64,000 nt of DNA from Allohoeflea poritis (GTDB lineage Bacteria > Pseudomonadota > Alphaproteobacteria > Rhizobiales > Rhizobiaceae): NCBI RefSeq assembly GCF_027889715.1, contig NZ_JAPJZH010000006.1, positions 1-64,000 of the forward strand, read 5' to 3'. Position numbers and translations under genes: made by a program. The notes beneath the pieces are model-generated. The model ran no database searches. It saw only the letters and a program-made list of their open reading frames with translations, and had not been told where the DNA came from. Below are positions 13,712 through 61,166 of the stretch, in pieces. Each line of letters begins with the position of its first letter. Position 1 is the stretch's first letter.

Positions 13712-13981
13712 TACCGTCAGCCCTATTCGGGGCCGTTTTCACAATATTTCTTCAATGAGTTCAGCTCGATGGCACTCAAAGATACCGTCAAGAGCGACCA
13801 TATCGGTGACGGTACCGGCAGGAGTCGCCAAAATCAGGGGCATGGAGGTCCGTCAAATATACCGTCAATATTTTTTGCTTCACCGCAATGTCCGCACATG
13901 GCGGACATTGGATGATGATGGAAAAATTCTTGATATCAATTGCTTGTGAGAACACTGGTCAACCGCGATCAACACGGATCC
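13712..13981 (+). repeat. Right-end repeat with TACCGTCA arm-type octamers, copy 1
   Basis: TACCGTCA occurs at 13712, 13783 and 13860, all in the same orientation. A near-match TACCGGCA is at 13813, and a degenerate octamer at 13848 lies 12 bp before the 13860 copy. The surrounding sequence, down to AACACGGATCC ending at 13981, is clearly homologous to 46473-46742 and 60871-61140. Compared with those copies, about 94 extra bases separate this end from its core at 14086. Confidence 0.85.
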
Positions 13982-14085
13982 AAGTGCCATAGCGCCAGCC
14001 CTTCGAGCGCAGCTCTCAGGGCGTTCGTCGCTCGAAAAGGTCCACCGGATCTTTGCGTTGAAGTGCTGCGCGCTTCAACCGCTCC

Positions 14086-14105
14086 TCACTCCCATTCGAT
14101 GATCA
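14086..14105 (-). other. Attachment-site-like core 1 (guaA 3'-end mimic)
   Basis: On the minus strand this reads IIEWE followed by TGA, mimicking the guaA C-terminus TIEWE-stop. It shares CTCCCA(C/T)TCGATGATCAATT with the cores at 28026 and 46754. It is the most divergent of the four (CAT for CAC, TGA for TAG), consistent with being the oldest junction or a different attP variant. Confidence 0.7.
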
Positions 14106-14160
14106 ATTGGGCAGATAAGTCGCTGATTTCATGGCAATCTTGTCTGCGGCAATTCGCGCA

Positions 14161-14180
14161 TACCGTCAGAAATACCGTCA
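14161..14180 (+). repeat. Left-end paired TACCGTCA octamers, copy 1
   Basis: TACCGTCA at 14161 and 14173, 12 bp apart, exactly 75 and 87 bp from the core start. The preceding GCGGCAATTCGCGCA block is shared with the copies at 28101 and 46829. Confidence 0.9.
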
Positions 14181-14401
14181 ATATTCTAAGCCTTTGAAAT
14201 TGCTTACGCTAATTTCTCACACTGCTAATAAAAACATGTGGAAAATCACCAAACGCGCGACCGGAGACCTTCCAACCGTGTCGGGCAGGCATTGCAGGTT
14301 CAAATCACGGGCCAGTAACCAACGCGGTCAGGAGAGTCTTTTACAAGCGGCGGCCTGGTCGTCCGCGCCGATCTGGCCCATCTGTCAGTTTGCGCGTATC
14401 G

Positions 14402-14944
14402 CTAATCGATCCTCGCGTAAGCCGCCGTGAAACCCGCCAGCGTGAAATTGGCGTCGATCTTCTGTTTCTGAAGATCGAAAAAGCTCAGGACAAGCTGGCT
14501 GCCGGCGCGCAGGGCGGAAAGCAGTGCCTGATCGACGATATGTCCGCCGTAGCAGCCATTGGCGTCGCAGGTCTGGATGGGAATCGTGATCGGTGCGGCC
14601 TGGTCCACCTGCATGGACAGGCCGTCGACGATGGACAATCCCAGGGGAACCTGCAGCAGCAGCGATGCGAAACCGTCCTCGGCGGCTTTTGTCGTCTTGA
14701 TCGTCAGGCGCGCCAGCCGCTGACCGGTCTCGCGGACAATGATCTGCTGTTCCATCGTGCATGCCAAGGTGTCCTCGCGGCCGGCGGACACGCAGACGAC
14801 ATTCCAGTTCCTGGCATTGTCCGGCGCGCCACCATCTTGGGCCTTTGCCGTGGAATTCAAGACAAACCCGGTTATCGAGACCAAGAGTGCAGCCATCGGC
14901 ACTGCACTCCTGCCGTCACCAAATCTGAGAAACATGTTGTTCAT
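14402..14944 (-). CDS. Invasion-associated locus B (IalB) family protein
   Basis: A 180-residue secreted protein. An N-terminal signal peptide ends near STAKAQD. The mature part has the IalB pattern: NWNVVC...CTMEQQI, the RLTIKTTKA strand, a GLSIVDGLSMQVDQ segment, TCDANGCYGGHI with paired cysteines, and a C-terminal FTLAGFTAAYA. IalB-type proteins are periplasmic or surface proteins of alphaproteobacteria first linked to erythrocyte invasion in Bartonella; their biochemical role is unclear. It lies 49 bp downstream of the giant autotransporter on the same strand, so the two are probably co-transcribed and may act together at the surface. Confidence 0.85.
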   Translation of the reverse strand: MNNMFLRFGDGRSAVPMAALLVSITGFVLNSTAKAQDGGAPDNARNWNVVCVSAGREDTLACTMEQQIIVRETGQRLARLTIKTTKAAEDGFASLLLQVPLGLSIVDGLSMQVDQAAPITIPIQTCDANGCYGGHIVDQALLSALRAGSQLVLSFFDLQKQKIDANFTLAGFTAAYARID

Positions 14945-14993
14945 CCCCCTTGTTGTCGCGGTTCACCGACGGATGTCCGCCACCCCGTCCGAA

Positions 14994-17900
14994 TTAGTAG
15001 GGAACCGTCAATTTCAGCGAACCCTGCTTGTTCGTGGTGTTCGGGCCGAACTGGCCGCTGACATTCGCCTGCAGGCTGACGCCGTTGGCGGCGATCCAGT
15101 CCAGACCGGCGGCAAGAGTCAGCAGCGTATCATCCTGGCCGGCTTTGATAATGGCGGAGGGAACGCCGGCCGGGGTTCCGTCGATCCTGGCCGCGACCGC
15201 CGGCACCTCTCCGATATGCTGCAGCACGCCGACATTGGCCTTGGCCCGGAGCACCGACGCGCCGAGATCGAGTTCACCGCCCGCCTCCAGGTGCGGTGCG
15301 ATCCACCCGTAGATCTGCGAGCTGCTGTCGATGGTCAGATTGGTGAGGCCGCCGCCGGTTTCGGTAAACCCCTTCTGGTGCATGTAGGTAGCCGCGCCGT
15401 CGACCGTCGGCATCAGATAGATGCCGCCGAAATCGTAGAGATGTGCCAGCCTGACATTGAGCGACAGATACCCCACCTTCTGCGTCGCCGTGGCAATGCC
15501 GCCCACCGTGCCGACATTGACAACGCGGCTCGTGTCGAAGGAACCGAGGCCGCCGATGAGCGATCCGGCCACCTTTGTGCCGCCATCGACATATTTCAAG
15601 ACGAGGCCGGCTTGCGGACGCTCACCCTGCCCGCTGGCGTTGGAACCCGACCGGAATGAGGCCTGCTCGTAGGAGCCGGCCATGCCCAGATACAGTTTTT
15701 CATTGATATCGCCCTGAAACCCCGCGGCGAAGCCTTGGCTGGTCTCGTTGTAGGCGAAATTCTCAATGGTGCCGCGATAGTTCTGTTCGACTGCGGTGAT
15801 CCGCGCCCAGGCGCAAGTGTGTTCGGCGATGAACCGGTACTTCCCGTCCCTGTCGCTGCAGCTCAGCATCGCGTCAGCGAAATTGCCGACACTGACGGTG
15901 GTCGTGGCCAGGCTCGTGGCATAGGGCTCCGGGCTGAGTGAATTGTAGGCCTCCTTCAGGCCATCAAGTGTTTCGATCTTGAAAACAGTCCCGACAAGAT
16001 CGGCAAATTTGGAGGAGCCGCCGGCAAGCTGGACGTTGTTGATGTAATCGCCGAAGGAAGTCTGGTTCCGGTTCAGGCCGGCGGGCGAGAAGTCGATCAC
16101 ATATTCGAACTTCGCGTCCCGCAAGCTCGGATACAGGATGTCATACTCGGCGACGGCCGAAACCGGCGCGTTCAAAACCAGGTTCTGCGATGTCATATCC
16201 TGTTGCGTGGTGAAGAACGTGACCTCATGGGTGCCGGGCGCGGCGGCATTCGGATTGACCACGAACAAATCGAATGTGCCGTCGAGCGACGCCGAACCGG
16301 TCGCGTCGATGCGGTCGATCTTGCCGACCTTGGTGTCGCCCGAGACGAAGTCGAAATCGGCCATGATGTTGGCCGTCGCCGTCTGAACGAATGTGCCGCC
16401 GAGGCGGGTGGTGGACACCGTCTCGATCTTGCCCGTATCGGCGAGTTCGATGATCCCGTTGTTGAACAGCCGGTTGGAGGCCAGCCCCAGATCGACGGTC
16501 TTGCCCATGTTGAACCGGGCGGCGTCAACCCTGTTGTTGAACGCGTTGATGCCGCCGGCCAGTTCGATATTGCCCGTCACCCGACCGTTGTTCTCGATGG
16601 TGTCATTGCCAGTGGTTCCAGAAACAGCCAGGCCGTCAACCAAAGCGGTGGTGGTGATGAAACCGTCATTGGTGACGGTGTTGTCAGCGCCTTCCCTGAG
16701 GTCCACGCCAATGCCCTTCGCACCGCCGGCGATCAACCGGCCGGTCTTCAGGTGGATCGCAATGTTGCCGCCCGATGTTCCGGCGCTTTGAGCCAGGACA
16801 GCCGTCGATGTCTCGTGGCTTGTCTCGACATTGCCATCGAGCGTGAGACTGACCCCGGCGCCTGTCCCGCTACCACCGGCAGTGCCGGAAAAAATCCCGT
16901 CGATGAAGCCACCGCCGCCGCCAAGGCTCTGCAGCACGATGCCGAAAGATTCCCGGCCGCTGGTGGCGACATTGCCGCTCTGCACCAGTGTGACGGCGCC
17001 GCCGTCTCCGGAATTGGCACCACTGAGTGTCATGTTCACCTGGCTGGCATCGGCGTCGTGGAACGCAGTGCCGCCGCCGCCGCCGATGGATTGCAGGACA
17101 ATCGCGTGCGAACGGCTGCCGGCGGTGGAAGCGATGCCGGTATTGTTCAGCGTCACCGCGCCGCCATCGCCGTTCGCGGCGGACTGGCCGCCAACCGTCA
17201 CGTTCAGCTGCGCGCCGCCGGCACTCACCTGCTCGATGCCGCCGCCGGCGCCGATGCTCTGATGCACGAGTGCGCTGGAATTGTCGCCCGCCGTCGCTGT
17301 GTCGCCGAGCCTGGTGATATTGACGGCACTGCCGTCATTGCCGGTGCCGCCATTGGAGCCGAGCACGATATCGACGGGCGGCGGGACAGCGAGCGCGGCA
17401 GCGGCAAAGCCTGCCGGCGCCGGTGCGGCGGGTGCCGCCGCGGCGGACACGGAGGAAGGTGGCGGTGTCGTGTCGAAGGTCTGGTAGCCGCCGCCGCCGC
17501 CGATGGACTGCGCAAGGACGCCGACGGACTGTTCGCCGATGACGATAACGTCATCGTCAATCTGATAGGTCACCGTTCCGCCGGCTTCGGACGTGCCGTT
17601 GGTGCCGCCGGCCCTTAACGCCGATAGCCCGATCTCGCCGTCTGTCGTATCGACGGTGAATGTCGAGCGCCCGCCGCCGCCGCCGATGCTCTGCAGCAGG
17701 ACACCCTGGGTATCCGCGCCAAGGGCAATCAGCCCGCCTGCGTGGCGTCCTGTGATGGCGGCGCCGTTGTTGTTCTTGCCGTTTTCGCCGCCAAGCGTGG
17801 ATACGATTTCGATCGCGCCCGCGATCTGTCCGGCGGTCTGCGCGAGGACGAGCTGTGTGAGCGTCGTGCCGCCGCCGCCGCCGATCGCCTGGATGCTGCT

Positions 17901-20900
17901 GCCGGTATTGTGATGGCCGGTCAGGCCGAACGTTCCGGTCGTGTTGACGGATACCGCCGCGGCGACCGCGTTCTCCGTACCCTTGCCGCCGGCGATGATT
18001 TCGAGCGCCGGTTTGGAACTGACCGATGTGCTGCCCCCGCCGATTGGAATGAGCGAACCGGGTCCCAGCGCCGTGGCACGTTTCAGGTCCAGGACGAGAC
18101 CGCCGCCGCCGCCATTGATGCTTTGCGCCTTGATCGCCTGCGAGCCCTGACCGGTGACCGTGATGTCGCCGGAGTGGTTGACCGTCACCTTGCCGCCCAG
18201 GCCACCGGACCCGCCGCCACTGCTTCCGACAAGCATCGAAAGGTTGTTCGCAATCAACGTTGAAATCGCGTTGCCGCTGCCATTGGCGACCGCCAGACCG
18301 AGCGAGGCGTTGCCGCCGCCGCCACCGATGGATTGGGCCAGAATGCCGTGGCTGCTCTTGCCTTCGGTGCGAATGGTTCCGGTGTTGTTGACGACGACAT
18401 CGCCCGCGTCCTCACCGGACCCTCCCTTGCCGCCTATGGCAACCAGGGGGCTGAGGCGGTTTATGTCTTTTGCCAGCACGACGCTCCGTGCAATGCTGGT
18501 CCCGCCGTTGCCGCCGCCGCCGCCGATGGATTGGGCAAATATGCCGTGGGCCTGATCGCCCAAAGTCTGGACCGCCCCGTCATTGGTGACGAGCACGTTT
18601 CCGGATCTGCTGCCGCTGCCGCCGTCGCCGCCTATGCTGATTCCGGCAAGAATGCTCTTTTGTCCCGTCGCGATGTTCTGCGTGAATATAGCGCTGCCAT
18701 TGCCGCCGCCGCCGCCGATCGCCTGTGCGAAGATGCCGTGGGCGTTTTCGCCGCCGGTATCGATGCGGGCGGAATTGGTGTTCGTGACCGTCACATTTCC
18801 GCTGCTGCCGCCGGTTCCGCCGCTGCCGCCGATATTGATGTCCAGCCTGTTGGCGGCCGATCCGGCCATCGGCTTGGATGTGGTGTCGTTGACCACCAGG
18901 CTGCCATTGCCGCCGCCGCCGCCGACCGACTGCGCCTGAATGCCATGGGACCGCTTGCCGGCGGTCTTGATATTGCCGGTGTTTTCGACCGTGACCGTCC
19001 GGCTCAGGCCTCCGGTGCCGCCGCTGCCGCCGATCCCCAGATTGGCGGCATTGCTATTCTGTCCGCCGACGAACGTCTCGTTGATGACGAGGCCGCCGCT
19101 GCCGCCGCCGCCGCCGATGGATTGGGCGACGATACCGGCAGACTGACCCGCTTTCGTCTCAATGGTCCCCGAACTGACGATTTTGACCTTTTCCGCCTCC
19201 GCGCCGCTGCCGCCGCTGCCGCCGACACCGACCGTGACGGAGTTGGACCCATTGGCCGATGCACTCCCGACAAGCGGCGCGAATGTCACGGCACTGCCGC
19301 CGGTGCCGCCAGCACCGCCGATGGACTGGCCGAGAATACCGTGCGAATCCGCTTTGTTTGTCACAATATCCGCGGTGCTGGTCACGTCGACCGTATCGGA
19401 TTTGGCACCGGCTCCGCCGCTGCCGCCAACGCCGACTTTGGCAGAGGCACTTTCCCGGAACAGGATGTTGGTGACAAAGCCGCCGGTCCCGCCGCCGCCG
19501 CCGATGCTCTGGGCATGAATGCCATGCGAGGCCTGGCCGTTTGTGGAAACGACGCCATCCACCGTGACGATCACCTTGCCGCCCGTGCCGCCACTGCCGC
19601 CGTCAAGCCCCACCGACAATTGCGCGGCCGCTGATTTCTTGGTCTTTTCGGTGCCTGACTGAGCGCCGACGGCCACCGTTGTCGCCGTGCTTCTTCCGCC
19701 GCCATTGCCGAGGCTCTGCGCGATGATGGCGGTCGCCATGTCTCCCGCCGTTGTGAAAACGCCGTCCGCCGTCACCGTGACGTTCCCGCCGGCGCCGCCG
19801 GTCCCGCCTGTGCGTCCGATGGTGAGGTCCAGGGACTTGCCGGTGCCCGGATTGAGGATCAGGCTCAGAGCCGTGTTGCCGCCACCCCCGCCGATGCTTT
19901 GGGCGATGATTGCGGATGCGCCAAGACCAGCCGTCGTGATGTTGCCGGTCTGATCGACCGTGACGGCGCCGCCGGTTCCGCCATTGCCGGCGCCGCCACC
20001 GATGGCGAGGTTGACCGCCTTTGCGTCCTTGTTGAAGCCGGCGCCGATGTTGAAATTGGCATTGCCGCCGCCGCCGCCGATCGACTGGGCGAGCAGGCCG
20101 ACGGACTGGTTTCCGGCGGTTTTGATTTCTCCCTTCTGGTTCACCGTGACCGTCGATGCCGAACCCGAGGCGCCGCCCGAGCCGCCCAACGCCAGGATCA
20201 GGGACTGGCTGCCGAGCGGATTGGCAAGGCTGGCGGCCAGGACAATATTGATTCCGGCATCGCCGCCGCCGCCGCCGACGGACTGGGCGGTCAGCGCATT
20301 GGCGTTGTTTCCAATGGTCTGCAGCAGGGCCTGGCTCGTCTGTCCTCGGTTGACCAGGACCGCGCCCGCATTGCCGCCCGCACCCCCGCTTCCACCGACA
20401 CTGGCGGCCAGAGGGCTGCCGGACGGCGAAATGGCGCCCGCGACATTGACGCCGCCGGACCCGCCACCGCCGCCGACCGACTGGACCAGGATGCCGTTGG
20501 CGCGGTCCGCGAAGTTCGTACCGGCCGGTCCGAGAGGCGTTCCTCCAAACGGGTTGTTGGACGTGCGGGCACCATTGACCGTCACCGCGCCGTCGCTGGT
20601 CAGGGTGACCATTTTGGAATTGGCGCCGGCGCCGCCATTTCCGCCGATGCCGATCGTGGCGTTGTAACCGCTGCCGGCGGTCACATCGGCCGAGACGTTG
20701 AGGCCGCCGGACCCGCCGCCGCCAGCAACGGACTGAGCCAGGATGCCGATGGCCTCCACGCCGGTGGCAACGACGGTTCCGCTCTGCGTTGCCGTCACCG
20801 TGCCGCTGGCGTTGGCGCCGCCCCCGGCACCGCCCAGACCAAATACGAGTGAGGGCTTCGCCGATGCTTTGTTGGCCTGAATGCCGCCGCTGATGTTGAT

Positions 20901-23900
20901 GGCGCCGTCACCGCCGCCGCCGCCGATGGATTGTGCTGCAAAACCACGGGACCGCGCACCAAACGCCGACACATCGCCGCTGACGGACGCAATCACCGTG
21001 TTGCCGATGCCGGCGCTGCCCCCCGATCCGCCGATGCCGGCCGTGATCCCGCCATCGATGCTGATGCCGCCCGACACATTGATGGCGCCATTGCCACCGC
21101 CACCGCCGAGGCTCTGTGCCAGGACGGCGGATTTTCCGAATCCTCTGGACTGGATAACCCCTTGCGCGACAACTGTTCCCGAAACTTCCTTTCGCTCGGC
21201 AAGGACCGCCAGGTCGACGGTGCCTGCATTGCCGCCCGCGCCGCCGAAGCCGCCCAGGCCGAGCGTCACCGCATAATTGCCGCCGCCGGCCGGTGAGCCG
21301 AGCGACAGGCCGCTCGCGATATTGACACCGCCATTGCCGCCGCCGCCGCCGACCGACTGCGCGACAACGCCGTTGGAGCCTTGCGCCCGAAGCAGCGCCA
21401 ACATTTCCGACGGCACACCGGCCGGGATGTTGACGCCCAGGGCCAGGACGTCGCCCGTCACGCGGCCCTTGACATTGCCTGCGGCGCCGCCGTTGCCGCC
21501 AAAACCGCCAACGCCGATGTTCACGGCGGCGGACGTGCCCGATGTGGTCCCGGCAATGCCGCTGCTGATGTTCATGGCGCCGTTGCCGCCGCCGCCGCCG
21601 ATGCTCTGAAACGTCACCGCGTCCGACAGCACGCCGGTGGTGACCGTGTTTCCGGTGCGGCCGAAATCGACATTGCCGCCGGTCCCCCCGATTCCGCCGA
21701 AACCGCCGATGCCGACCGACGCCGTTCCTGAGAGTTTGGTCGCGAGACTGAGTGTGCCGGAGATATTGACGCCGCCCCGGCCGCCGCCGCCGCCGACCGA
21801 CTGCGCCAGGACGCCGAACGCATTGGCACCGGATGTGCGCACCGTGCCGTCAACCCTGCCATCGACGTTCTGGCCGCTGCCACCGCTGCCACCGAAACCG
21901 CCGACACCGGCCCCGATCGCTCCGCTGTTGCCGATCGACATGGAGACCGTTCCGCTGACGTTCAGGCCGCCGCTGCCGCCACCGCCGCCGAGACTCTGTA
22001 CCAGCGCGCCATAGGCGTTGTCCTTCGTGGTGGTGATGTCGCCTGTCATCCGTAAGGTGGCAGCGCCCGCCTGGCCGCCGCCGCCGCCAAAACCGCCGAC
22101 CCCGACACCGACCGTCGCGGCGCCCTGGCTCGATGCGGCAAGGCCGCCCGTCACGTTGAATGCGCCGTTGCCGCCACCGCCGCCAACTGACTGGACAAGT
22201 ACCCCGTTGGCATCTTTGCCACCGGTGGCGATGTTGCCGGCAATGTCCGCGATGACACGCCCGCCGGATCCGCCACCGCCGCCGAAGCCGCCGACACCGA
22301 CACCGACGGACGCGGCGCCCGTGCTGGTAGAAGCCGACACGGCCGACGAGACATTGAAGCCGCCATTGCCGCCGCCGCCGCCAATGGACTGGCTGACGAA
22401 GGCGCTGGAGGCGGCGCCCATGGTGGTTATGTTTCCGGTATGGTTCATGGTCACGGTGCCGCCGCTCCCGCCGCTACCGCCCGAACCGCCAACTCCGACG
22501 GATACGGCGCCCGCACCGGTGCCCGAGCCTGAAAGCGAGCCCGATACGTTGAATGCGCCGTTGCCGCCGCCACCGCCGACCGACTGTGCCACGATCCCGC
22601 TCGACCGGGCGGCGTCCGTTCGCACGCTGCCGCTAATCAGGCCGGCGACCAAACCGCCTTGACCGCCGCCGCCGCCGGAACCTCCCACACCGGCGGTGAC
22701 CGCACCCGCGGCGGTGCCTGCGCCTGCGACGGCACCGGAGACATTGAAGCCTCCGTTGCCGCCGCTGCCCCCGACCGACTGCAGTAAAATCCCGGTCGAA
22801 TCGGCCTGCCTGGTCGTCACGGTACCGGCATAGTGGACATCCACCACCCCGGCGCTGCCGCCATTACCGCCCCGGCCACCAATACCGACGGCCACGCCAA
22901 CGGCGGCCGTGTCGGAGGCCGCGCCCGAAAGGGAGAGAGAGTATCCACCATTGCCGCCGCCGCCGCCGACGGATTGGGCGATCAGCCCGTCCGACATGAC
23001 GCCGTTCGTTGTGATGGAGCCGCCGGAACGGATCTGAACCCTGTCGCCGATGCCGCCGGCGCCGCCCGAACCGCCGACACCGAAGGATGCGGACACCGCG
23101 CCGCCCTTGCCTGCCGCAACCGCGACGGAAGTCACCGAGCCGCCATTGCCACCGCCACCGCCGACGCTCTGCGCCAGAATGCCGTCAGCATTCACGCCCT
23201 GTGTCGTCACCGCGCCATTGCCGTTGATATGAACCTGGCCGCCGGCCCCGCCTGAACCGCCGGTACCGCCGACACCGACGGACAGCGCTCCGAACACCCC
23301 GGCCGCGATGGATGTCGAGAAGCCGCCATTGCCGCCGCCGCCGCCCACCGACTGCGCCAGAATTCCGTTGGACCGGTCACCTTCGGTCGTGATGAGCGGG
23401 TCGATCTGGGTCGGCACGCCATTGATGACGACCGTGCGCGGACCGAGATTGACCGTGGTTGTTCCACCGACCCCGCCATTGCCGCCGCTGCCGCCAATGC
23501 CGACGGACGCAAAAAGGCCGACGGCGAAGGAATTTCCACCGCTGCCGCCGCCGCCGCCGACGGATTGCGCGAAGATACCGTGCGAATCGTTTCCGCCGGT
23601 TGAGATGCGCCCGGAATTTGTCGCCGTGACAATGCCGCCATGACCACCCGCACCACCCGCCCCGCCGATCGATACCGGCCCCCCGACGGAACCACCATCG
23701 CCGCCGCCGCCGCCGATGGATTGAAGCTGAATGCCGTGGGAAACATTTCCGGAGGTGCCGATTTGACCGCTGTTGCTGACAATCACATTCCCGCCGCTGC
23801 TGGCGACACCGCCCGAACCCCCGAGAGCGACGGCACCGCCTGTATCTCCGCCGGATCCGCCGCCGCCGCCGATCGATTGCGCAAGGATGCCCCGCGCACG

Positions 23901-43306: not shown

Positions 43307-43314
43307 GACTTGAT

Positions 43315-50160: not shown

Positions 50161-50497
50161 TCGCTAAAGACGCCGGCAGAGAAACAGCGATCAGCGATGG
50201 ATTAAGGCCCGGCAACCCAGTCTCCAAACCTGCACCTCTGTCGCCCAGCAGCATGCGAGCGCTGGGAGCAATGATTGCCGCAGCCAGCATGTAGGCCGCG
50301 GCAATCGGCGATGCAACGAGGACAGCTGCCAGGAAAAACAGACCCGTAAGCTCATTGGACTGGAAACAAAGCTGGGAGCAACCGCGCAGCACCAGGCGCC
50401 AACAGGGCAACTGGCCGGGCTCGGCCGCCGGAAAAACGAAATCAACAGACGGCTTTTCCCTACTTCGAGATCGCAAGCCAATCGGTGTTTTGGCCAT
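50161..50497 (-). pseudogene. N-terminal remnant of a urea transporter
   Basis: About 110 residues from an ATG at 50497 resemble the start of bacterial UT-family urea transporters: LRGCSQLCFQSNELTGLFFL, a membrane segment, then LLGDRGAGLETGLPGLNPSL. The similarity stops at about 50160, where a porin fragment begins in another frame. It starts 25 bp after the biuret-hydrolase-like gene, so the two were once an operon for urea-type nitrogen. The present transporter cannot be functional. Confidence 0.65.
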
Positions 50498-50522
50498 GGC
50501 AGGCGCTCCCGCAAGAAATGCG

Positions 50523-51768: not shown

Positions 51769-52440
51769 TCAGAACACATACCCGACGCCATATATTGAAC
51801 GGATAATATCGTCGTCGGCTCCGGCAGCTCTCAATTTGGAACGGATGTTCTTGATGTGGCTGTCGATTGTCCGGTCAAAAACATCGCTGTCCTCGGGAAA
51901 CGCAAGCTCAATCAGTTGTGCACGTGAAAACACGCGTCCCGGCTGGCTCCAAAGAACATTCAGGAGTTGGAATTCACGGCGCGTCAAATCCAGTTTCCGG
52001 CTTTGAAATACTGCCGTCCACCGTTCTTTATCCAATCGAAGTCCGGATGAATTCGAACCGGGATCGTCTTGCCTTGTTCGCCTGAGAATTGCCTTGGCGC
52101 GGGCGACGACTTCCCTTGGCGACCACGGCTTGCAGATGTAGTCGTCGGCGCCAAGTTCCAGTCCGAACAGGCGATCCAATTCTTCCACTCGCGCACTTTC
52201 CAGAATAATTGGCACTTCGCTTTCTGCACGCAACGCCCTGCAAACCGCCAACCCGTCTTTTCCGGGCAAATTAATGTCAAGAATAACAAGGTCCGGCTTG
52301 GCCTCGAGTATCTTCTCAACGGCTCCGGCCCCGGTATGAAGAACGCTCGTTTTGGCACCTTCCCGAATAAAATAGCTGCTCAGCACAAACGCCAGCGGCG
52401 GCTCATCCTCCACAATGAAAATATGACGGTTGCTGAGCAC
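51769..52440 (-). CDS. OmpR-family response regulator (BaeR-like)
   Basis: A 223-residue two-domain regulator. Receiver domain: acidic pocket VEDEPP, phospho-acceptor Asp55 in LVILDINLPG, Ser at the usual Thr switch position (ESARVEE) and Lys in YICKPWSP. Winged-helix DNA-binding domain from about residue 130 (LDLTRREFQLLNVLWSQPGRVFS; DRTIDSHIKNIRSKL; IYGVGYVF). Its likely partner is the BaeS-like kinase at 58118-59707, same strand and in the normal kinase-then-regulator order, but separated by 5.7 kb of genes on the other strand. Confidence 0.9.
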   Translation of the reverse strand: MLSNRHIFIVEDEPPLAFVLSSYFIREGAKTSVLHTGAGAVEKILEAKPDLVILDINLPGKDGLAVCRALRAESEVPIILESARVEELDRLFGLELGADDYICKPWSPREVVARAKAILRRTRQDDPGSNSSGLRLDKERWTAVFQSRKLDLTRREFQLLNVLWSQPGRVFSRAQLIELAFPEDSDVFDRTIDSHIKNIRSKLRAAGADDDIIRSIYGVGYVF

Positions 52441-53048
52441 TGAAACGAGGCCCCCTGGGGCATGGTTTGACTGGAAATATCGCCTATGCCGAAGTCAAGT
52501 GAGCAGTAAGCCGGCTTTCGTCAAACCAGGCGAGCGATCAGGTGTCCGTGTAACGGTTGAACCACCTGATATGCAATGCGATTGTCCCATCTGCATTGTG
52601 CAGATATCCAGACGCTTCTCAAGGCCGTCAAGTTCGCGCCGTGTATCCCGCCTGTCTCAAGCCGCAAACTACACATCGAGTTCGAAAAACGCCTTCTACA
52701 AGCAGCGAGACAGGGCCGAAAATACTTCTAATCTGTTCAAGGACTGGCGTCCGACCGCCATATAATATGGCCTATCTCCTCATTACAGCCAGACGCTGGC
52801 GACATTCATTATCTGCCGGTGCAAACAATCGCCCCTCAGGCCGGTAGGGTGATACAAATCACATGTTTTTTTGAGACAATGCTACATTGACGAAAAAGCG
52901 AATAACTTAAATAATACAAAGTAATACAAGAATTTTTCCCAGCATTTATAAGACATTGGCAAGATTTGGGCGATTATGAGAGCAATCCGCCAGTCGTGAC
53001 CTTTTGGTCGAAATTCAGAACCCTCAACCTTACTGATATGGAACGGCA
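52441..53048. other. Gene-free stretch upstream of acetolactate-synthase-like gene
   Basis: Divergent space between the response regulator and the TPP enzyme gene. Short frames are present without recognised products. The last 170 bases are AT-rich and may contain the promoter of the plus-strand gene. Confidence 0.4.
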
Positions 53049-54701
53049 ATGACATCCAAGCTGGTAGCTGAAATCCTTGTGGACTGTCTTGAGAATGAGG
53101 GCGTTGAGTTTGTTTTCGGCATTCCCGGAGAAGAAAACATTCGACTGGTCGACGCCTTGAACGGATCCCCCATCCGCTTCGTTCTTGCAAGGTCCGAGCA
53201 GGGCGCGTCATTTATGGCGGACATGTACGGCCGCGTGACCGGGCGTCCCGGTGTGTGTACGGCGACACTCGGGCCCGGCGCCATCAACCTCCTGCTCGGT
53301 GTGGCCGACGCACAAATGGACAGCACTCCACTCGTTGCCATTACGGCACAGGTTGGTCTCAACAGGATATACAAGGAGACGCATCAATTCGTCGATCTTC
53401 TCGGCATGTTCAAGCCGGTGTCGAAATGGGCCGATATGGTCCATACACCTTCAGCTGTTCCCGAGATGGTGCGCGCCGCGTTCAAGGCCGCCCAGGCAGA
53501 GCGCCCCGGTGCCGCTTATCTGGCAGTGCCCGAGGACGTCGAAGCAATGCACGCGCCGCGGGACATTCAGCCACTTGCCATAAACTCCGTGCGTCCCGAC
53601 GCACCGTCTCCGAGCCAGGTCGAACGTGCTGCGGCAGTGCTCGACGCCGCCGAACGGCCAATCTTGCTCGTCGGCCATGGCGCGGCACGCGCCGGCGCGC
53701 AAGATGCGCTCGTCCGCTTCTCCGAAAGGCTCGGCATACCCGCCGCGACCACTTTTCACGGTAAGGGCGTCATGCCTGACGACCATGAAAACGCGCTCGG
53801 CGCGATCGGCTTCATGGTGCACGATTATACCAATTTCGGCTTCGATCGCGCAGATCTGATCATAAGCGTCGGTTACGAACTCCAGGAGTTTCCGCCCTCG
53901 CGGATCAATCCCGACGCGGACAAGCCGATCCTGCACATCCATCGTTTTCCCGCCGAGGTGGACGCCAATTACGGGCTCTCCGTCGGCGTTGAGGGCGACA
54001 TTTCAAAAAGCCTCGATGCGCTGCGTGCCGCCTCGTCTAAGACATTTGCCGTTGACCCTACAAACTCATCCATCCGCAAGCTGGTTCAAAATGAGTTGGA
54101 CAACGGACGCGCTGACGATTCGTTTCCCGTCAAGCCACAGAGGATCGTGGCCGATATCCGAGAGGCGATGGGGCGGAGCGACGTCGTGCTTGCAGATACC
54201 GGTGCGATCAAGATGTGGATGGCGCGGCTCTATCCGACATATGAGCCGAACACGTGCCTGATCTCGAATGGTCTGGCGACGATGGCCTTTGCACTTCCGG
54301 GCGCAATAGGCGTGAAGCTCGCCGATCCGCGGCGCAAGGTATTGGCGGTTATGGGTGACGGGAGCTTCCTGATGAACTCCCAGGAAATAGAGACTGCGAT
54401 CCGCGAGAAAACGCCGATCGTGATTCTCATCTGGCTCGACGGAAGCTATGGCCTGATCAAGTGGAAGATGGACCTGGAGATTCAAAGACACTCGCACGTC
54501 GATTTCAACAACCCCGATTTTGTCGCATACGCGGAAAGCTTCGGGGCGAAGGGATACCAGGTGAGTGCTGCGCACGAGCTCTTGCCGACACTCCGCAAGG
54601 CTTTGGAAGACGACAGCGTCTCAGTCATCGTCTGCCCGGTGGACTACTCCGAGAACGACAAGCTGACCGGCCGGCTCGGAACGCTCACCCAGCCAATCTG
54701 A
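53049..54701 (+). CDS. Thiamine-diphosphate enzyme, acetolactate synthase-like
   Basis: A 550-residue TPP-dependent enzyme. N-terminal PYR domain: VFGIPGEENIRLVDAL, catalytic Glu in ARSEQGASFMADMYGRVTG; the KETHQFVDLLGMFKPVSKW segment recalls catabolic acetolactate synthases. Middle domain: ILLVGHGAARAGA. C-terminal PP domain: GDGSFLMNSQEIETAI...LIWLDGSYGLIKWK, the GDG-N TPP/metal motif. It probably condenses two pyruvates to acetolactate; other pyruvate-using TPP enzymes are possible. Monocistronic on the plus strand, inside the split two-component system. Confidence 0.82.
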   Translation: MTSKLVAEILVDCLENEGVEFVFGIPGEENIRLVDALNGSPIRFVLARSEQGASFMADMYGRVTGRPGVCTATLGPGAINLLLGVADAQMDSTPLVAITAQVGLNRIYKETHQFVDLLGMFKPVSKWADMVHTPSAVPEMVRAAFKAAQAERPGAAYLAVPEDVEAMHAPRDIQPLAINSVRPDAPSPSQVERAAAVLDAAERPILLVGHGAARAGAQDALVRFSERLGIPAATTFHGKGVMPDDHENALGAIGFMVHDYTNFGFDRADLIISVGYELQEFPPSRINPDADKPILHIHRFPAEVDANYGLSVGVEGDISKSLDALRAASSKTFAVDPTNSSIRKLVQNELDNGRADDSFPVKPQRIVADIREAMGRSDVVLADTGAIKMWMARLYPTYEPNTCLISNGLATMAFALPGAIGVKLADPRRKVLAVMGDGSFLMNSQEIETAIREKTPIVILIWLDGSYGLIKWKMDLEIQRHSHVDFNNPDFVAYAESFGAKGYQVSAAHELLPTLRKALEDDSVSVIVCPVDYSENDKLTGRLGTLTQPI

Positions 54702-55456
54702 GCTTTTCGGTACGCCTCCTGCGCCTCGTAACGGCGAATGCGCCATGGCGCTGGCTGCGTTGGCGGCCAACCTAATTCAGGTGTCGGCCCCCTCCCCGGA
54801 CCGCGACAGATGATCATGCTGCCATTAGACAGCCACTGGCAATCGTCCCCATATCGGAGATCGCCAATGGTCGACATTCTGTAAGACGCATGGTGATCTG
54901 AAATTCCTGTCGGGTGACCGCGATACGATTGACGAGAAGCATAACATCAGGCTCAGACAGCCTTGATCGCAACCTTCCTTGGGGAAACAAGCTCATGGCA
55001 CTTTTCGGGAATGATACCAGCAGGGAAGCCGACGACTGAGGCCTACAGCTGAGACAAATCTACGACCCAAGTCGAGACAAAAGTCCATAGACAAAACAGC
55101 ATTCTCGTAAAGAATGAGACTATGTCTGGCGATTGGTGTGACACCAAAGCTCAGCCTCTCTCGGACGATCGCACGTGAAATGCTGATCGTCAGACAATTC
55201 CCGACCCGCCATTGCTTCGTTGTGCGAGGCGGTGCGCAGGCAAGGCGAATACGAAAGCCAAGCAAGGAGAGACGTTACCCGTGCGGCCGGCATGCCTTTC
55301 AGCATTTCTCCTCGCGAAACGAAACTGCGCGCCTGCAAAACCGCTCGGCACAGCAAAGTGGAAAGGCAGATCTGCTGATAGGAGAAAAGTGGATCGCCGG
55401 CGATACCGGGTAGGTTTGAATATGAAATCATACCTTTGCCGAAAGATACATTCAAA
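54702..55456. other. Gene-free 750-bp stretch
   Basis: Short overlapping frames on both strands without recognised products or convincing ribosome-binding sites. No hairpin of note was found. It may contain decayed gene remnants and the promoter of the first AraC gene. Confidence 0.35.
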
Positions 55457-56488
55457 ATGACGACTGACAATTGCACGGTTCCGTCAATTCAGCTCGATGC
55501 GACTGTGGTTGGCGCGAAGCATTGTTACGATGCCTGGAGAGAATCCGTGCGCGCAGTTTATGACGTCGAGCCGGCCGCTGATGTCAAAAGCACCACCGAA
55601 AGCATCAAAGCCTGGCTTCTGAAGGAATTGATATTCTCAGATGTCAGCTTTTCGCCACAACAGTTCAGACACTGCAGGCGGCTGGCAAAAGACTCCAATT
55701 ATATCTCGCTGCAGATCTATAAAAGCGGTCGCTGTCTTGGCACTGCCGGAGACCAGACTTGGCAAGTTGCTCCCGGTGATGTTCACATTTTTGATTTTTC
55801 GCGAGAATTTTCTTCCGTGGCATCCAAGTCCACGGTCATTGGCTGTCTGATACCTCATGAATTTGTCGGGTACGATCCGGCCAGACACCCAGCGCACATA
55901 ATGTTCTCCGGCAGTACGCCCGTCGGGCAGTTTCTCGCCAGTACTATGTTCGCACTCCTGAGCCAATTGCCGCGGGTCGGAATCAGCGAAGCTGACGATC
56001 TATCAAACGGTTTTTGCAGTCTGTTACAGGGCCTGATCGAACCGCAACTGCCACCGAAGGAAAAGGAGCGGAATGCCGGCGAAGAGCGCCGAAATGACAT
56101 GCGTTCGTATCTCGACAGGAATCTTTCCGATCCGAACCTGAACGTCAATCACTTATGCAGAGTTTTTAATATCTCCAGACCGTCCGTATACCGGTATTTT
56201 GCGGAACATGGCGGCGTCGCGCAATATATCGTGCAACGCAGGCTGAAGCGCGCGTATTTCCAACTTGCTTCCGTTCCGGAGTTCCACGGACGCGTCAAAG
56301 AGGTCGCGCATGGATTGGGCTTCAACGACGCAGCTCATTTCAGCAGATTGTTCCGTCGCAAATTTGGCGTAACCCCGAAACAAGCTGCAAATCTCAGCAG
56401 CGCAGGGAGACTGAGCCGCGACCGGAACCAGCTCCGCGAACAATCGATCAATTTCAGTCAATTGAGTGAATGGATCCAAAGTATCTAG
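55457..56488 (+). CDS. AraC-family regulator, paralog 1
   Basis: A 343-residue regulator. The N-terminal ligand/AraC-binding-like domain includes LQIYKSGRCLGTAGDQTWQV and GDVHIFDFSREFS. The C-terminal double helix-turn-helix has VNHLCRVFNISRPSVYRYF and the final GFNDAAHFSRLFRRKFGVTPKQA. An in-frame TTG at 55436 would add seven residues; ATG at 55457 aligns with the best start of the paralog. Related across its whole length to the regulator at 57083. Confidence 0.85.
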   Translation: MTTDNCTVPSIQLDATVVGAKHCYDAWRESVRAVYDVEPAADVKSTTESIKAWLLKELIFSDVSFSPQQFRHCRRLAKDSNYISLQIYKSGRCLGTAGDQTWQVAPGDVHIFDFSREFSSVASKSTVIGCLIPHEFVGYDPARHPAHIMFSGSTPVGQFLASTMFALLSQLPRVGISEADDLSNGFCSLLQGLIEPQLPPKEKERNAGEERRNDMRSYLDRNLSDPNLNVNHLCRVFNISRPSVYRYFAEHGGVAQYIVQRRLKRAYFQLASVPEFHGRVKEVAHGLGFNDAAHFSRLFRRKFGVTPKQAANLSSAGRLSRDRNQLREQSINFSQLSEWIQSI

Positions 56489-57082
56489 GAAAAGCCGGTG
56501 AAGTGGGAGATCACGCGCCTCTTCGAAGTTTACGGAACTTGATACCCAAAAGTACAGTTACCGCGGGCCGTTGATATGCTTGACCAATATCGGATGTTAA
56601 CCGATAGGCTCTGAACCCTTGGATACGGCGCATCCCTTATCAGCAAATGGCCAAGGGCTGGAAAGTCACCGACCTCGACCAACTTCGATTGAGCGCGATG
56701 GGTTTGCCCCGACAAAGACTCAAGATCCGCATCCTGTCAAACAGCGAATCATTATGTGCCGAATCGTCCGGAAACCCTCAATTAAAGTCGGGTAGAGGCA
56801 AAGATATGCCAGATTCGTTCAGTTCTGGATTGCCGGACTCAGCGAATTTCGATGTTGCCGTTCTTAGAAGCTCATCATAATTGTTATTTTAAATCAAAAT
56901 ATTATGGCCAGGGCGGCGATAACAATCATCGTTCGGCCCTCTACTCTGACGTGTCAAATCCATACTCGCTGCATATTTGCGTTCCATTTTGAGGACCATA
57001 CGAGGTTGGCTGCGAAACTGTTGTAAAAAAAACGATTTTTCGCAGCCTGATGGTTCATGATTTTCGACGATTGGGGGCGGAC
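56489..57082. other. Gene-free stretch between the AraC paralogs
   Basis: No convincing gene. A 77-codon plus-strand frame at 56647-56880 has no recognised similarity. The part from about 56870 to 57030 is AT-rich and probably holds the promoter of the second regulator gene. Confidence 0.35.
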
Positions 57083-58102
57083 ATGTCGGCGAACAGGCTC
57101 GTAACAGACCTGGAAGAACATCAATCAGATGTTGGAAAAAAACATTGCTCAAGCAGCCTTTGGAAAGCGCTTCATGCTGTCTACAATGCCCATACAAGCG
57201 AAGATGAAACCGTAAGGTCGTCCATCCTAAAAGTTCGGACGCTGGACAATCTGATCTTTCTGGATCTCAGACTTTCCGGTCAGTCTCTCAGGCATGAGAG
57301 CAAACACGCCAAAGACGCAGACTTTCTGATCTTGCAGATATTCAAAAGCGGGCGTGCAACGGGGGTTCTAGGCGATCAGTCCTGGGAGATCAATTCTGGT
57401 GAAATTCATATTCTCGATTTTTCGAGAGAGCTATATTCGACCGCAACGCACGCTGAAATGGTGAGTGTCATAATTCCACACGACGCTATCGGATACAATC
57501 CGGACAAGCACCCTCCTCACATTCACTTGTCGGGGAAACCGTCCATCGCACAGTTTATCCTGAGTACCGTACTTTCGCTCGTCATGCAGCTTTCGGATGT
57601 CAGCGCCAAGGATGAAAGGAGCTTCTCGCAGGGTTTTTGCAATCTCATCCGCTGCGCGCTCCTGACTGAATCGGCAACTTTGTCGGTTAACCAAAATTAT
57701 CGCAAAGAACGGCGTCAGCGCATGCAAACCTATATCAGCCAGCACCTTTCAGACCCCGAGTTGGACGCAGAGCACCTTTGCAAAACCTTTCATGTTTCCA
57801 GGCCAACCATATACAGGGACTTTGCCGAAGCGGGGGGCGTCGCCAAATTCATTACCCAGCGGCGCCTTGAAAGGGCCTATTATCGGCTTACTTCGTCCGG
57901 CTCTTCGCCCATTCGTGTAAGCAATGTGGCATTCGAACTGGGCTTTATGGACCCTGGTTATTTCAGCAGGATCTTTCGCCGAAGGTTCGGCATCAGCCCT
58001 AAAGAAGCGGCAAGCTCGAACTCCGACTTTCGGCAAAACAGTGTGACTTTCGAAGAACTTTGCGAGCATAAAGAACATTTGCGGCGTTCCGGGACAAGTT
58101 AA
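57083..58102 (+). CDS. AraC-family regulator, paralog 2
   Basis: A 339-residue paralog of the previous regulator with matching blocks (LQIFKSGRATGVLGDQSWEI; GEIHILDFSREL; AEHLCKTFHVSRPTIYRDF; GFMDPGYFSRIFRRRFGISPKEA). The frame is open 33 bases further up, but ATG at 57083 has a GGGGGCGG ribosome-binding site and matches the paralog's start. It converges with the histidine kinase gene, whose end is 15 bp away. Confidence 0.85.
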   Translation: MSANRLVTDLEEHQSDVGKKHCSSSLWKALHAVYNAHTSEDETVRSSILKVRTLDNLIFLDLRLSGQSLRHESKHAKDADFLILQIFKSGRATGVLGDQSWEINSGEIHILDFSRELYSTATHAEMVSVIIPHDAIGYNPDKHPPHIHLSGKPSIAQFILSTVLSLVMQLSDVSAKDERSFSQGFCNLIRCALLTESATLSVNQNYRKERRQRMQTYISQHLSDPELDAEHLCKTFHVSRPTIYRDFAEAGGVAKFITQRRLERAYYRLTSSGSSPIRVSNVAFELGFMDPGYFSRIFRRRFGISPKEAASSNSDFRQNSVTFEELCEHKEHLRRSGTS

Positions 58103-58117
58103 ACTTCGTAGCAGGAT

Positions 58118-59707
58118 TTACCGCCTTGAGAACAGCCGGGTGTGGCGGTCTGACTTGAATGGGTTCCGCCGTCGGAGGTCTCGCGTACCGGTGGCGGTCA
58201 ACGTCACTTGTATAGCTTGGTCCCTTGGCACCGACGAGGGCATTGCTCGCTTCATTTTGATTGGAATACGCACGGTGACGCCAAGACCGCCCAACCCGGA
58301 AATCTCCGCCGTAATCGCGCCGCCGTGGTCTTTTACTATTGCCTGACAAACAGCCAGTCCGAGGCCGACACTTCCCAAGGCATGGGAATGGGTTTCTTCG
58401 ACACGGTAAAACCTGTCAAAAAGACGCTTCAAATTGTCCTTGGGCGGTGAAGGCGCACTGTCGGCAACGGTGAGAACAATTTCATGGTCAGATCGGGTCA
58501 GCCGAATTTGAACAGTGCCCGGTGCTTCGGTGTAACGCCTGGAGTTTTCAAGAAGGTTACCGATCATTTGCCGAATTCGCATCGGATCGACATCGCCGAT
58601 AACACCGGATTGAATGGAGACGTCCAGCGTAAGCCCGGCGTCCTCCATCACCGACCGGGTCATTTTGGTTGTTTCGCCAACAATCCTGGAGATATCCTGG
58701 TTTTCAATTTTTTGAACCAGTTTTTCTTCCCTTGCATAAGATAATAAACTCAACGCCTCAACGAGTTCGGATACGCGCATTACTGCGCAGTGGAGCGTGG
58801 CGTAGGTGCCTTGGCCCGCCAGACGCACACCGTCTTGCAAGGCCTCAATTTCAGCCCGTAGAATGGACAAGGGGGTTTTCAGTTCGTGGGACGTGTCCGA
58901 AATCCATTGTTTTTCGGCTTTTGCTGCCCGCTCCAGGTTGCGGGCAAGCAGGTTGAAGTCTTTGATAAGCTCTCCAACTTCATCAGTGCGCGCAGAGCGA
59001 AGCTGTATGCCATAGTCGCCATTTGCCAACCGTCTTGTACTTCCGGCAAGCATCTGCAAAGGAGCAATCAGCTGTTTCGAAAGAAACGTAGCAAAGAGGG
59101 TCGATGCTATAAGAGCGAACAAGGATGCCCAACCCAACGTTCTGAACTGACCGCACAAATAGATTGAATCGGCTAGAGTTCGACCCTCATTAGGAGATCG
59201 TACGCCAAAATAACCGACAACAGCTTCGCCTGCTTCACCCCTGTTAACAATGATGGGCTCAATCAATGCGCCTTCGACCAGGCCGGGTGCTCCACCCACT
59301 AGGTTGCGATCCGCATCGAGCAGAAAAGTTCTGGGACCAATTCCCAGTGGGTCATCGGTGGCCGGTTGAACCGGTCCGTCACCGATTTTTACGTCCGATG
59401 GCATCCCGCCTACCGGAGCGGAGGCAGTCAGCCGATCCGGCCTGAAGGGATCAAGCTCCATTCTGACATATTCCAGGAATCCAATGGGGGTGCCGTCAAA
59501 TTGAGGCCAGCCGCCCGCCTCTTCGTCATAGTCTTCTGTCAGGGCAGTTTTGACCGGCCGCAACCGATCCATATCGGCAGCCAAAATATAATGGGTCAAG
59601 CCTTCGCGAAATGAAATCCCGACCATACCGGCCATGATGACTATGACCAGCATTGCGGTGACTGCAATCGCCAGGCAGAGCTTCCCTCTCATGCTAAGAT
59701 GAAACAA
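58118..59707 (-). CDS. Sensor histidine kinase (BaeS-like)
   Basis: A 529-residue sensor. Two membrane helices (about 10-32 and 190-212) flank a periplasmic domain of ~155 residues. A HAMP region follows (LIAPLQMLAGSTRRLANGDYGIQL), then HisKA with phospho-acceptor His274 in ISDTSHELKTPLSIL, and the ATPase domain with IRQMIGNLLENSRRYTEAP and GLGLAVCQAIVKDHGG. The last ~35 residues after VTVRIPIKMKRA are an Arg-rich tail not usual for BaeS. It is probably the partner of the regulator at 51769-52440. BaeS-type kinases sense envelope stress or toxic compounds; the signal here is unknown. Confidence 0.88.
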   Translation of the reverse strand: MFHLSMRGKLCLAIAVTAMLVIVIMAGMVGISFREGLTHYILAADMDRLRPVKTALTEDYDEEAGGWPQFDGTPIGFLEYVRMELDPFRPDRLTASAPVGGMPSDVKIGDGPVQPATDDPLGIGPRTFLLDADRNLVGGAPGLVEGALIEPIIVNRGEAGEAVVGYFGVRSPNEGRTLADSIYLCGQFRTLGWASLFALIASTLFATFLSKQLIAPLQMLAGSTRRLANGDYGIQLRSARTDEVGELIKDFNLLARNLERAAKAEKQWISDTSHELKTPLSILRAEIEALQDGVRLAGQGTYATLHCAVMRVSELVEALSLLSYAREEKLVQKIENQDISRIVGETTKMTRSVMEDAGLTLDVSIQSGVIGDVDPMRIRQMIGNLLENSRRYTEAPGTVQIRLTRSDHEIVLTVADSAPSPPKDNLKRLFDRFYRVEETHSHALGSVGLGLAVCQAIVKDHGGAITAEISGLGGLGVTVRIPIKMKRAMPSSVPRDQAIQVTLTATGTRDLRRRNPFKSDRHTRLFSRR

Positions 59708-60017
59708 GTTAATTTCCCGCCCCCGTCAGTCAGACCTTTGATTTTGAAGCCGTCTCGATGTCAATCGATCGATGCCCGGGACACATTTGAGGCTGTCATT
59801 CGGGCTAGAACATTCGGCTATTGGAAGCCGTTTGCCGGGGTTTTCTCATACTTGACGACAAGTACAGGCTGACATTGGAACTGCGGTTCCTCTTGCAGGC
59901 GGATACAAGGATTCACGGCAAACGCGATCACCTTCCTAATTCGAGAATGATCATTCCTGTTTATATGTTGTGGTTGTCGCATTGGTCAAGTACCCCTCAA
60001 GGAAGAAGGAGCCGTCG
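59708..60017. other. Divergent intergenic region
   Basis: A 310-bp space between the histidine kinase and TetR genes. GAATGATCATTC at 59944-59955 is a perfect 12-bp palindrome 63 bp before the TetR start codon and is a candidate operator. Nothing else is recognised. Confidence 0.4.
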
Positions 60018-60698
60018 TTGAACAAAACCCGAGAAGGAAACACCGGTCGTATCGCTCAGAGGAGAATGGCTCTGAAGCGTCGCCTTATGGCCAGAGGCTT
60101 GGAATACTTTGCGAAAAAAGGCGTTGACGGGACCGGCATGAGCGAGCTTCTAGCCGCGGCCGAAACATCGCCCGGAGCATTCTACAAGCTTTTTGACAGC
60201 AAGGAGGCCTTTGTCCGCGCGCTGATCGAAGAAACCATAAACCCCATTGGAAACGTAATTGACGAAGCGGGCAAAGAAGCCGACGAATCCATACAGGCGA
60301 TTGCCCTGGGCCTCAGAATTACACTTGAGATCGCCCGACGATATCCTGACTGGGGTCGGTTTGTGTCTCAGACGGCCTTGGTCGGCTTCGAGAGCCAAAC
60401 AGGTTTTGCTCCTCGCGTCGCGCGCGACGTAAGCAAGGCGAAGTCGACAGGCGAAATTGACGACGCCGACGATCTTTTACTGAACGCCATTGCCCTGGGG
60501 GCTTTCCTGTCAGGCGTCGCAGCGGCCGGGTATGGCCTTCTTAATCCCGACATGATTTCCGGTCTGACGGAACGCGCGCTTGTGGCAATGGGAGCAGATC
60601 GTGAACGCGCCCATAGAGCAGTTAAACCTGAGATCGATGCCTATGTTGACGCGGCAATTGCAAAAGGGCGCACTCAAGGTATTTTTGAGGTGCAATAA
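60018..60698 (+). CDS. TetR-family transcriptional regulator
   Basis: A 226-residue TetR-type regulator. The N-terminal helix-turn-helix is RLMARGLEYFAKKGVDGTGM followed by SELLAAAETSPGAFYKLFDSKEAF. The C-terminal ligand domain is helical. The TTG at 60018 is preferred as the start because AGGAAGAAGGAG precedes it; the frame is open 48 bases further up. No target gene is adjacent except the kinase, which is divergent. Confidence 0.85.
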   Translation: MNKTREGNTGRIAQRRMALKRRLMARGLEYFAKKGVDGTGMSELLAAAETSPGAFYKLFDSKEAFVRALIEETINPIGNVIDEAGKEADESIQAIALGLRITLEIARRYPDWGRFVSQTALVGFESQTGFAPRVARDVSKAKSTGEIDDADDLLLNAIALGAFLSGVAAAGYGLLNPDMISGLTERALVAMGADRERAHRAVKPEIDAYVDAAIAKGRTQGIFEVQ

Positions 60699-60870
60699 CC
60701 AGTCGTGGCAATCAAAAATTTCCTCAATTCACTATCGCCTCGATAACTAATCTTCTTCCACTTCAGCGCGGAGCCCTTGGTATTGGCCTCATCCGGCCTG
60801 GTCTTGTCGTGTCGTTGGAGACGTTCCACGATCCTTTACCTTCAGACAGGCGGCATCCTTCTGCATAATA
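60699..60870. other. Short gene-free stretch
   Basis: Space between the TetR stop and the right-end repeat of element C. Nothing recognised. Confidence 0.4.
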
Positions 60871-61140
60871 TACCGTCAGCCCACTGCAAGGCCGTTTTCA
60901 CGACATTTTCCCAATGAATTCAGTTGTTTCGCTCTCGAAAAATACCGTCAAGGGCGCCGATATCGGTGACAGTACCGGCAAGAATCACCGAAATGAAGGG
61001 CGCAGAAGACCGTCAAATATACCGTCAATAATTTTTGCTTCACCGTCATATCCGCGCATGGCGGAACTTGGATGACAATAGAATATATTTTGATATCAAT
61101 AGTTTGTGGGAAAACCGGTCGACCGCCATCAACACGGATC
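60871..61140 (+). repeat. Right-end repeat with TACCGTCA arm-type octamers, copy 3 (next to guaA)
   Basis: TACCGTCA at 60871, 60943 and 61020, with TACCGGCA at 60973: 281, 209, 132 and 179 bp from the guaA stop codon, identical offsets to the copy at 46473. It ends in AACACGGATCC, 12 bp before the guaA stop. Confidence 0.9.
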
Positions 61141-61151
61141 CACCGCAATCC

Positions 61152-61166
61152 CTACTCCCACTCAAT
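61152..61166 (-). other. Attachment site at the guaA 3' end
   Basis: The last five codons of guaA (TIEWE and TAG) form the core shared with the three junctions to the left, identical over CTACTCCCACTC. guaA is a known integration target of genomic islands in other bacteria. The island DNA lies on the downstream side, leaving the gene intact. Confidence 0.8.

Follow-up and report, generated by a model that had tools for sequence, protein, structure and literature searches.

The 3′ end of guaA, the gene encoding GMP synthase, was reportedly recognized as a hotspot of integration by Song et al. 2012. Behind this gene in the alphaproteobacterium Allohoeflea poritis we describe a row of stacked units, contained in part within a window of 64,000 nucleotides at the start of contig C51 (NZ_JAPJZH010000006.1) of assembly GCF_027889715.1, a genome of 5.58 Mb in 54 contigs, called G000 below. 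The row very probably arose as islands specific for guaA integrated one after another and subsequently lost their integrase, which makes it similar to an accretion of cis-mobilizable elements (CIMEs).

The hotspot itself, its core GAGTGGGA and the P4-type integrases accompanied by AlpA are already published (PMC9376610, PMC7775301). According to the available part of PMC9376610, GIsul2 and related islands likewise use the guaA 3′ end, have the same core GAGTGGGA at guaA and belong to the same integrase family, and GIsul2-type islands share with our locus a third, internal attachment (att) site that makes separate units. Unlike the stack in the window, which is integrase-less and probably counts five units, GIsul2 has its integrase and its excision was shown; it is carried by plasmid pAB3, and its plasmid copies can occupy sites without a conserved att (PMC9376610). 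The integrative and conjugative element (ICE) ICERspD18B, as far as the accessible text describes it, is likewise at the guaA 3′ end, with GAGTGGGA in its direct repeats, a P4-type integrase and AlpA nearby, but it is a single element that has its integrase as well as transfer genes, and no stack of defective units like that of the window is described there (PMC7775301). Accretion of CIMEs is already published for streptococci, where att sites are kept, recombination genes (and transfer genes) are lost and elements are stacked in tandem at the 3′ end of one gene (PMC7563491, PMC5704250, in the portions available). Two or three members make up each of those stacks, and the survey method detected CIMEs only beside an ICE or an integrative and mobilizable element (IME), in contrast to the probably five units described here, none with an integrase, in an alphaproteobacterium. 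Finally, guaA serves only as a typing gene in the accessible part of PMC13310844.

In the literature searched, partly available as excerpts, we did not meet an all-defective guaA stack of this length, nor the arm motif TGACGGTA at guaA, which is not thereby proven undescribed. Remarkable here are the length of the row and the fact that no island retains its integrase; the mechanism itself is known.

Junctions, Units and Extent of the Stack

In the window guaA occupies positions 61152..62714 on the minus strand, with the Pfam domains GMP_synt_C and GATase and a frame open to the terminal ...IEWE-stop. Four sequences resembling the guaA end were located in a single orientation where the preliminary description had placed them, starting at 14086, 28026 and 46754 (the distal ones) and at 61152 (guaA itself). 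Their 8-bp cores on the minus strand read GAGTGGGA at 28030-28037, 46758-46765 and 61156-61163, the last being the guaA end or proximal junction J4, and GAATGGGA at 14090-14097. Insertion in the last guaA codons with the GAGTGGGA core at both ends is thus found, J1 deviating with GAATGGGA. Successive cores lie 13.9, 18.7 and 14.4 kb apart, in agreement with the block sizes proposed earlier, and delimit units E0 (1..14089, cut by the contig start), E1 (14098..28029), E2 (28038..46757) and E3 (46766..61155, its core-to-core extent). Two other interpretations of the cores were tried and rejected: the IIEWE frame behind the distal cores is no real gene (109 aa open at 28026, broken by stops at 14086 and 46754), and the locus is no tRNA-type integration site, the window being without any tRNA.

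Comparison of the window with itself revealed two kinds of module, left and right, each always on its own side of the core. The right modules (14083-14373, 28028-28310 and 46751-46919) are 67-77% alike, bearing out the earlier claim that the right ends resemble each other in constant orientation. The corresponding claim for the left ends, which are 69-79% alike (aligned at 13662-13982, 46423-46744 and 60850-61150, and over about 27934-28020 at the second junction), stands in full for three of the four junctions; at 28026 the left module of E1 (27934..28020, minus strand) is truncated and without TGACGGTA. This 8-mer occurs 17 times in the window, against 0.72 copies expected, a number that none of 100 shuffles reached, and 16 of the 17 copies sit in junctions. 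Each right module holds two of them at 12 bp spacing: those of the distal junctions, here taken as right arm plus core and all on the minus strand, start at 14161 and 14173 in J1 (14088..14204), at 28101 and 28113 in J2 (28028..28143) and at 46829 and 46841 in J3 (46756..46871). Three or four copies are found in each of the minus-strand left modules at the 14086, 46754 and 61152 junctions, namely at 13712, 13783 and 13860, and at 13807 on the plus strand, in E0 (13647..13982); at 46473, 46545 and 46622 in E2 (46423..46744); and at 60871, 60943 and 61020 in E3 (60850..61151). The att sites are accordingly kept at the three distal sites and the guaA end, with the truncated left module of E1 as the exception.

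Two smaller features accompany these modules. A 96-nt repeat cassette (13992..14087, minus strand) lies between the J1 core and the left module of E0; it also adjoins guaA or att cores in congeners, and within the stretches searched it occurs nowhere except beside guaA or att cores of this genus (L102, L119, L073, L074, L067, L069, L071, L114). As a hairpin element it was rejected (z 0.01), 98 of 200 shuffles folding at least as well. In addition, a dyad TGCG-N8-CGCA is present between arm pair and core at 14145-14160, 28085-28100 and 46813-46828; of 59 right-module entries 12 have it, a count that includes two duplicates, and every one belongs to this genus or to one Rhodovibrionaceae metagenome-assembled genome (MAG). 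The dyad is perhaps, at a guess, the site of a directionality factor.

The extent of the stack beyond the window was followed with R1, a sequence profile made from 13 right modules and searched in 12 genomes at E values up to 0.1. In G000 it has seven sites: three in the window, where the matches span 116-117 nt (training sites; E 1.4e-29 for J1, 5.8e-29 for J2 and 5.6e-30 for J3), two on contig C33 and one each on C17 and C21. The C33 sites, at 434970 (E 1e-27, intact) and 381166 (E 9e-12, decayed), have the orientation that fits C33 running into C51. At its right end C33 has a precursor-like open reading frame (ORF) together with the beginning of a second, which over 81 nt shares 94% identity with the ORF at the start of C51. 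This similarity is most simply read as C33 continuing into C51, with an array of lanthipeptide precursor genes left unassembled in between. Under this inferred join, the distal core of E0 would be that at C33:434970. The stack would probably comprise five units in series of about 54, at least 16, 13.9, 18.7 and 14.4 kb, or about 117 kb in total; no left module lies behind the outermost C33 site. Between the two C33 sites, positions 393585-394174 are 98% identical to a 590-nt stretch in the HlyD-like region of E3 (window 47530-48119), perhaps owing to a recent exchange between stacked units.

The Junction Signature in Other Genomes

We scanned one genome per species (84,980 species) for a pattern in which any gap of 55-85 nt separates two copies of TGACGGTA from GARTGGGAGTRRGG; this yielded 47 stretches from records titled alpha-, beta- or gammaproteobacterial, many of them MAGs. 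The arms are required by the pattern and hence are no evidence themselves; the fixed gap between arm and core does count as evidence, being 63 nt in 39 matches, 64 nt in seven and 62 nt in one. guaA was located by its protein in 36 of the 43 genomes searched for it. Where match and identified guaA share a contig (14 matches), the match is without exception on guaA's strand, 3.1-34.8 kb downstream of the gene; the other 33 are on contigs without an identified guaA, four of them (L042, L050, L051, L052) in genomes not searched for the gene. The pattern had no match in viral contigs, and region 13690-14190 of the window had none in the plasmid collection. No gene was common to all stretches beside the right arm (loci L005-L063), the largest family covering eight loci.

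The R1 profile gave 27 matches in its 12 genomes, of which 11 are training sequences and 16 are new, including C33:381166, those of G005, G110, G003, G113, G128 and G026 and a third site in G006. The 18 on guaA's contig come from seven genomes (three in G000, one in G004, one in G005, six in G006, three in G007, one in G026 and three in G110) and are all downstream of guaA on its strand; eight of these 18 are training sequences. The six in G006, a genome of two contigs, lie 40-108 kb from guaA, three being strong and three partial. Nine matches are on other contigs (four in G000, two in G003, a weak one in G004, one in G113 and one in G128), and G001 and G002 show no match. In the congener G001, a stretch resembling a left module (67% over 142 nt) follows guaA and precedes an ORF of more than 5,300 aa (L064; G001:C5:1-18900); it is probably one more island of this kind, though R1 finds no G001 site.

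An empty site had been anticipated in relatives by the preliminary description, with an exact join at the core, and a pair of congeners provides it. DNA directly behind guaA in G002 corresponds to DNA 9.2 kb away from guaA in G005 (96% over 4453 nt), where it is preceded by a decayed right arm (R1 E 0.017) and a second GAGTGGGA core. By this alignment G002 is the empty site and G005 the filled one, joined exactly at the core; since the two are species of the same genus, the comparison is one between species and not between strains. The G002 gene downstream of guaA occupies that position only in G002 and G005; G000 has a 55% relative on another contig. A further comparison concerns J1, whose order of core, 96-nt cassette and E0 left module is repeated in G007 at guaA itself (84% over 269 nt); judged from this likeness, the guaA end of G007 is what J1 would be expected to have looked like before E1 arrived.

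Integrase and Origin of the Stack

DNA behind guaA was collected from the scanned genomes, and 33 guaA ends were compared. In nine of them an integrase ORF of 378-437 aa starts about 220-320 nt past the stop codon, and G004 adds one fragment; four of the 33 stretches are shorter than 450 nt and could hardly show such an ORF. Between core and integrase ORF, most of the nine have arm sites at recurring distances. The ORF adjoining guaA is a P4-type tyrosine integrase with Arm-DNA-bind_3, Phage_int_M and Phage_integrase domains, 56.5% identical to the copy on the Acinetobacter plasmid pAB3 and 49.4% to the integrase of phage SPN1S, and an AlpA gene adjoins it in two of three fetched records. One record, a 3,975-bp 'plasmid' (L116, NZ_CP155767.1), contains guaA, a guaA-type integrase and alpA, and looks like a mis-circularised chromosomal contig. 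In Salmonella phage SPN1S (NC_016761) right arm, core, left arm and int follow each other with TGACGGTA on both sides and a gap of 63 nt, as in the window, and in sequence this is the layout expected of a phage attachment site (attP). Unlike the window's units, SPN1S is a phage and not an island, and its right-arm pair has an imperfect second copy.

The genome of A. poritis differs from these cases in lacking an orthologue of this enzyme. A six-frame search of the whole genome found zero Phage_integrase matches in the window, the nearest on the contig being at C51:80332, on guaA's far side. With the L077 integrase as query, no orthologue was found in G000, its best full-length match being 30% identical, interrupted by one in-frame stop and located on another contig; the same query had no match in G006 and only distant ones in G007, so that neither has an orthologue. 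Traces were seen in two places: a stop-broken integrase remnant adjoins a junction at C17:34365-34671, and the inner end of the E0 left module resembles the start of the G004 integrase fragment (window 13647-14060 against L067). The preliminary description spoke of three complete elements; the integrase gene is absent from every block and, on this gene content, lost from the window's units, so none of them is complete and the adjective has to be dropped. The locus agrees in this loss of the recombination gene with CIMEs, and it departs from guaA islands, which have a P4-type integrase next to guaA.

These observations can be arranged into a sequence of events. A P4-type tyrosine integrase would bind the TGACGGTA arm sites flanking the core and recombine the island core with the identical sequence in the last guaA codons. 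The island would supply its own copy of these codons, whereby the GuaA end would be kept and a fresh target created for the next arrival; each newcomer would insert beside guaA and shift older units outward, the oldest being expected farthest away. Later the integrase would have been lost in G000 while cores and most arm sites stayed, leaving units that resemble CIMEs, presumably immobile by themselves at present and perhaps mobilisable by an incoming integrase. Serial integration of related elements, as first suggested for this locus, is supported by the arm-core-arm anatomy, the cognate integrase beside guaA elsewhere, the phage of the same layout and the empty and filled site of the congeners. 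The ancestor of the units could equally have been a phage or a satellite rather than an ICE or IME.

Several observations weigh against serial integration. The comparison of empty and filled sites covers congeners, the genome itself being the one strain of its species included; the C33-C51 join is based on the likeness of precursor-like ORFs at the two contig ends, which share no exact overlap; and the chromosomal neighbour past the outermost site was not matched by protein comparison among G000, G006 and G007. Four of the seven sites in the genome itself are off guaA's contig, and those at C17:35012 and C21:26185, unlinked to guaA, are the main loose end. In G113 and G128 the R1 site is on a different contig from guaA and its integrase, the left module of E1 at 28026 retains its first ~90 nt and zero TGACGGTA, and no TGACGGTA occurs within 1 kb of int on pAB3 (GIsul2), so the motif appears to be confined to part of the guaA integrase family.

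Were the blocks instead pieces of a single big island, or plain chromosomal DNA, and the cores dispersed repeats of other purpose such as terminators, the 96-nt cassette that adjoins several cores and the two sites on contigs unlinked to guaA would find a ready explanation. We hold this to be very improbable: left and right modules differ in sequence and face the core in a constant manner, shuffled copies of the cassette fold equally well, the integrase gene of SPN1S adjoins the same arrangement, and a core-bounded insert distinguishes G005 from G002 behind guaA. The preliminary description had named repeats scattered at non-guaA places as damaging to its proposal; by that yardstick it stands wherever site and guaA share a contig, 18 of 18 such R1 matches, training sequences included, lying downstream on the same strand. 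It stands less securely in G000, where the C33 pair has only a presumed link to guaA and the C17 and C21 sites have none. In place of successive integrase events, the ends of a single island might have been duplicated, or cargo might have entered through homologous recombination between att modules; this is an unlikely course, which we nevertheless rate somewhat above dispersed repeats. Modules 67-79% alike would suit it, and the 590-nt stretch shared by E3 and C33 indicates that exchange between units may happen. Against it, the divergence between modules amounts to about a fifth at least, G005 holds one insert flanked by a core on either side, and among the six G000 right modules the invariant columns are concentrated in the arm pair (18 of 21, as compared with 13 of 38 core-ward and 10 of 25 upstream), an invariance favoured by the sampling, in that three of the six were found by the arm pattern with at most three mismatches.

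A different question is whether units without an integrase can, as a class, still move, the guaA-type enzyme being supplied in trans by a phage or island that comes in. G000, G006 and G007 have preserved arms and cores despite the absence of an orthologous integrase, and in one phage the arm motif is found next to a related integrase gene; that very absence in the three genomes, however, also speaks against such movement, as do several truncated left modules. Moreover, 297 genomes of the family were screened for nearly all of E3 with the guaA-side 5 kb of E2 (19.7 kb, 41400-61100), the two top candidates being scored in each; by this scoring the whole stretch is in none of the other 296, five of which have partial matches. 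There is hence no sign, at the level of these genomes, that the units travel as such today, and mobility in trans seems to us doubtful, if the least remote of the alternatives. Slightly less likely again, and speculative, is the extension of this idea to guaA as an accretion locus, where integrase-less units with conserved arm-core-arm ends would form a passive store, filled, emptied and reshuffled in trans each time a phage or island brings the matching integrase, somewhat in the manner of giant gene cassettes.

Cargo and Significance

The contents of the units, described here from Pfam matches, are unrelated to each other. E0 contains a LanM-type lanthipeptide cluster, with LanM-like and C39-ABC genes and precursor-like ORFs having a nitrile-hydratase-like stretch, together with a LysR regulator. 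In E1 we find a repeat-rich ORF of 3626 aa (14994-25874, minus strand; G+C up to 70%, internal repeats about 198 nt apart), an ORF of the IalB family and a 561-aa ORF without Pfam match. E2 encodes an ABC transporter, aldehyde dehydrogenases, SMP-30, FAA hydrolase, CoA-transferase, enoyl-CoA hydratase, a GMC oxidoreductase, LacI and GH88, and its cargo is read, from these families, as serving sugar uptake and oxidation. E3 carries malic enzyme, a TPP enzyme, AraC and TetR regulators, a histidine kinase, a response regulator, a member of the isochorismatase family and a urea transporter. Of the labels given to these blocks earlier, 'adhesin' is unconfirmed, the Pfam scan of the 3626-aa ORF being without a match. 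No conjugation or mobilisation gene is among the 37 window ORFs scanned with Pfam, the remaining ORFs being unscanned. Comparison of window 1-61000 with the fetched regions of relatives by blastn (E up to 1e-20) placed 21 of 21 matches in junction modules.

A pair of TGACGGTA about 63 nt from a guaA-like core offers a search signature for defective guaA islands that integrase searches would miss. If serial integration followed by integrase loss is the true history of this locus, the end of a housekeeping gene can gather unrelated multi-gene cargo exceeding 100 kb where the genome has no matching integrase.

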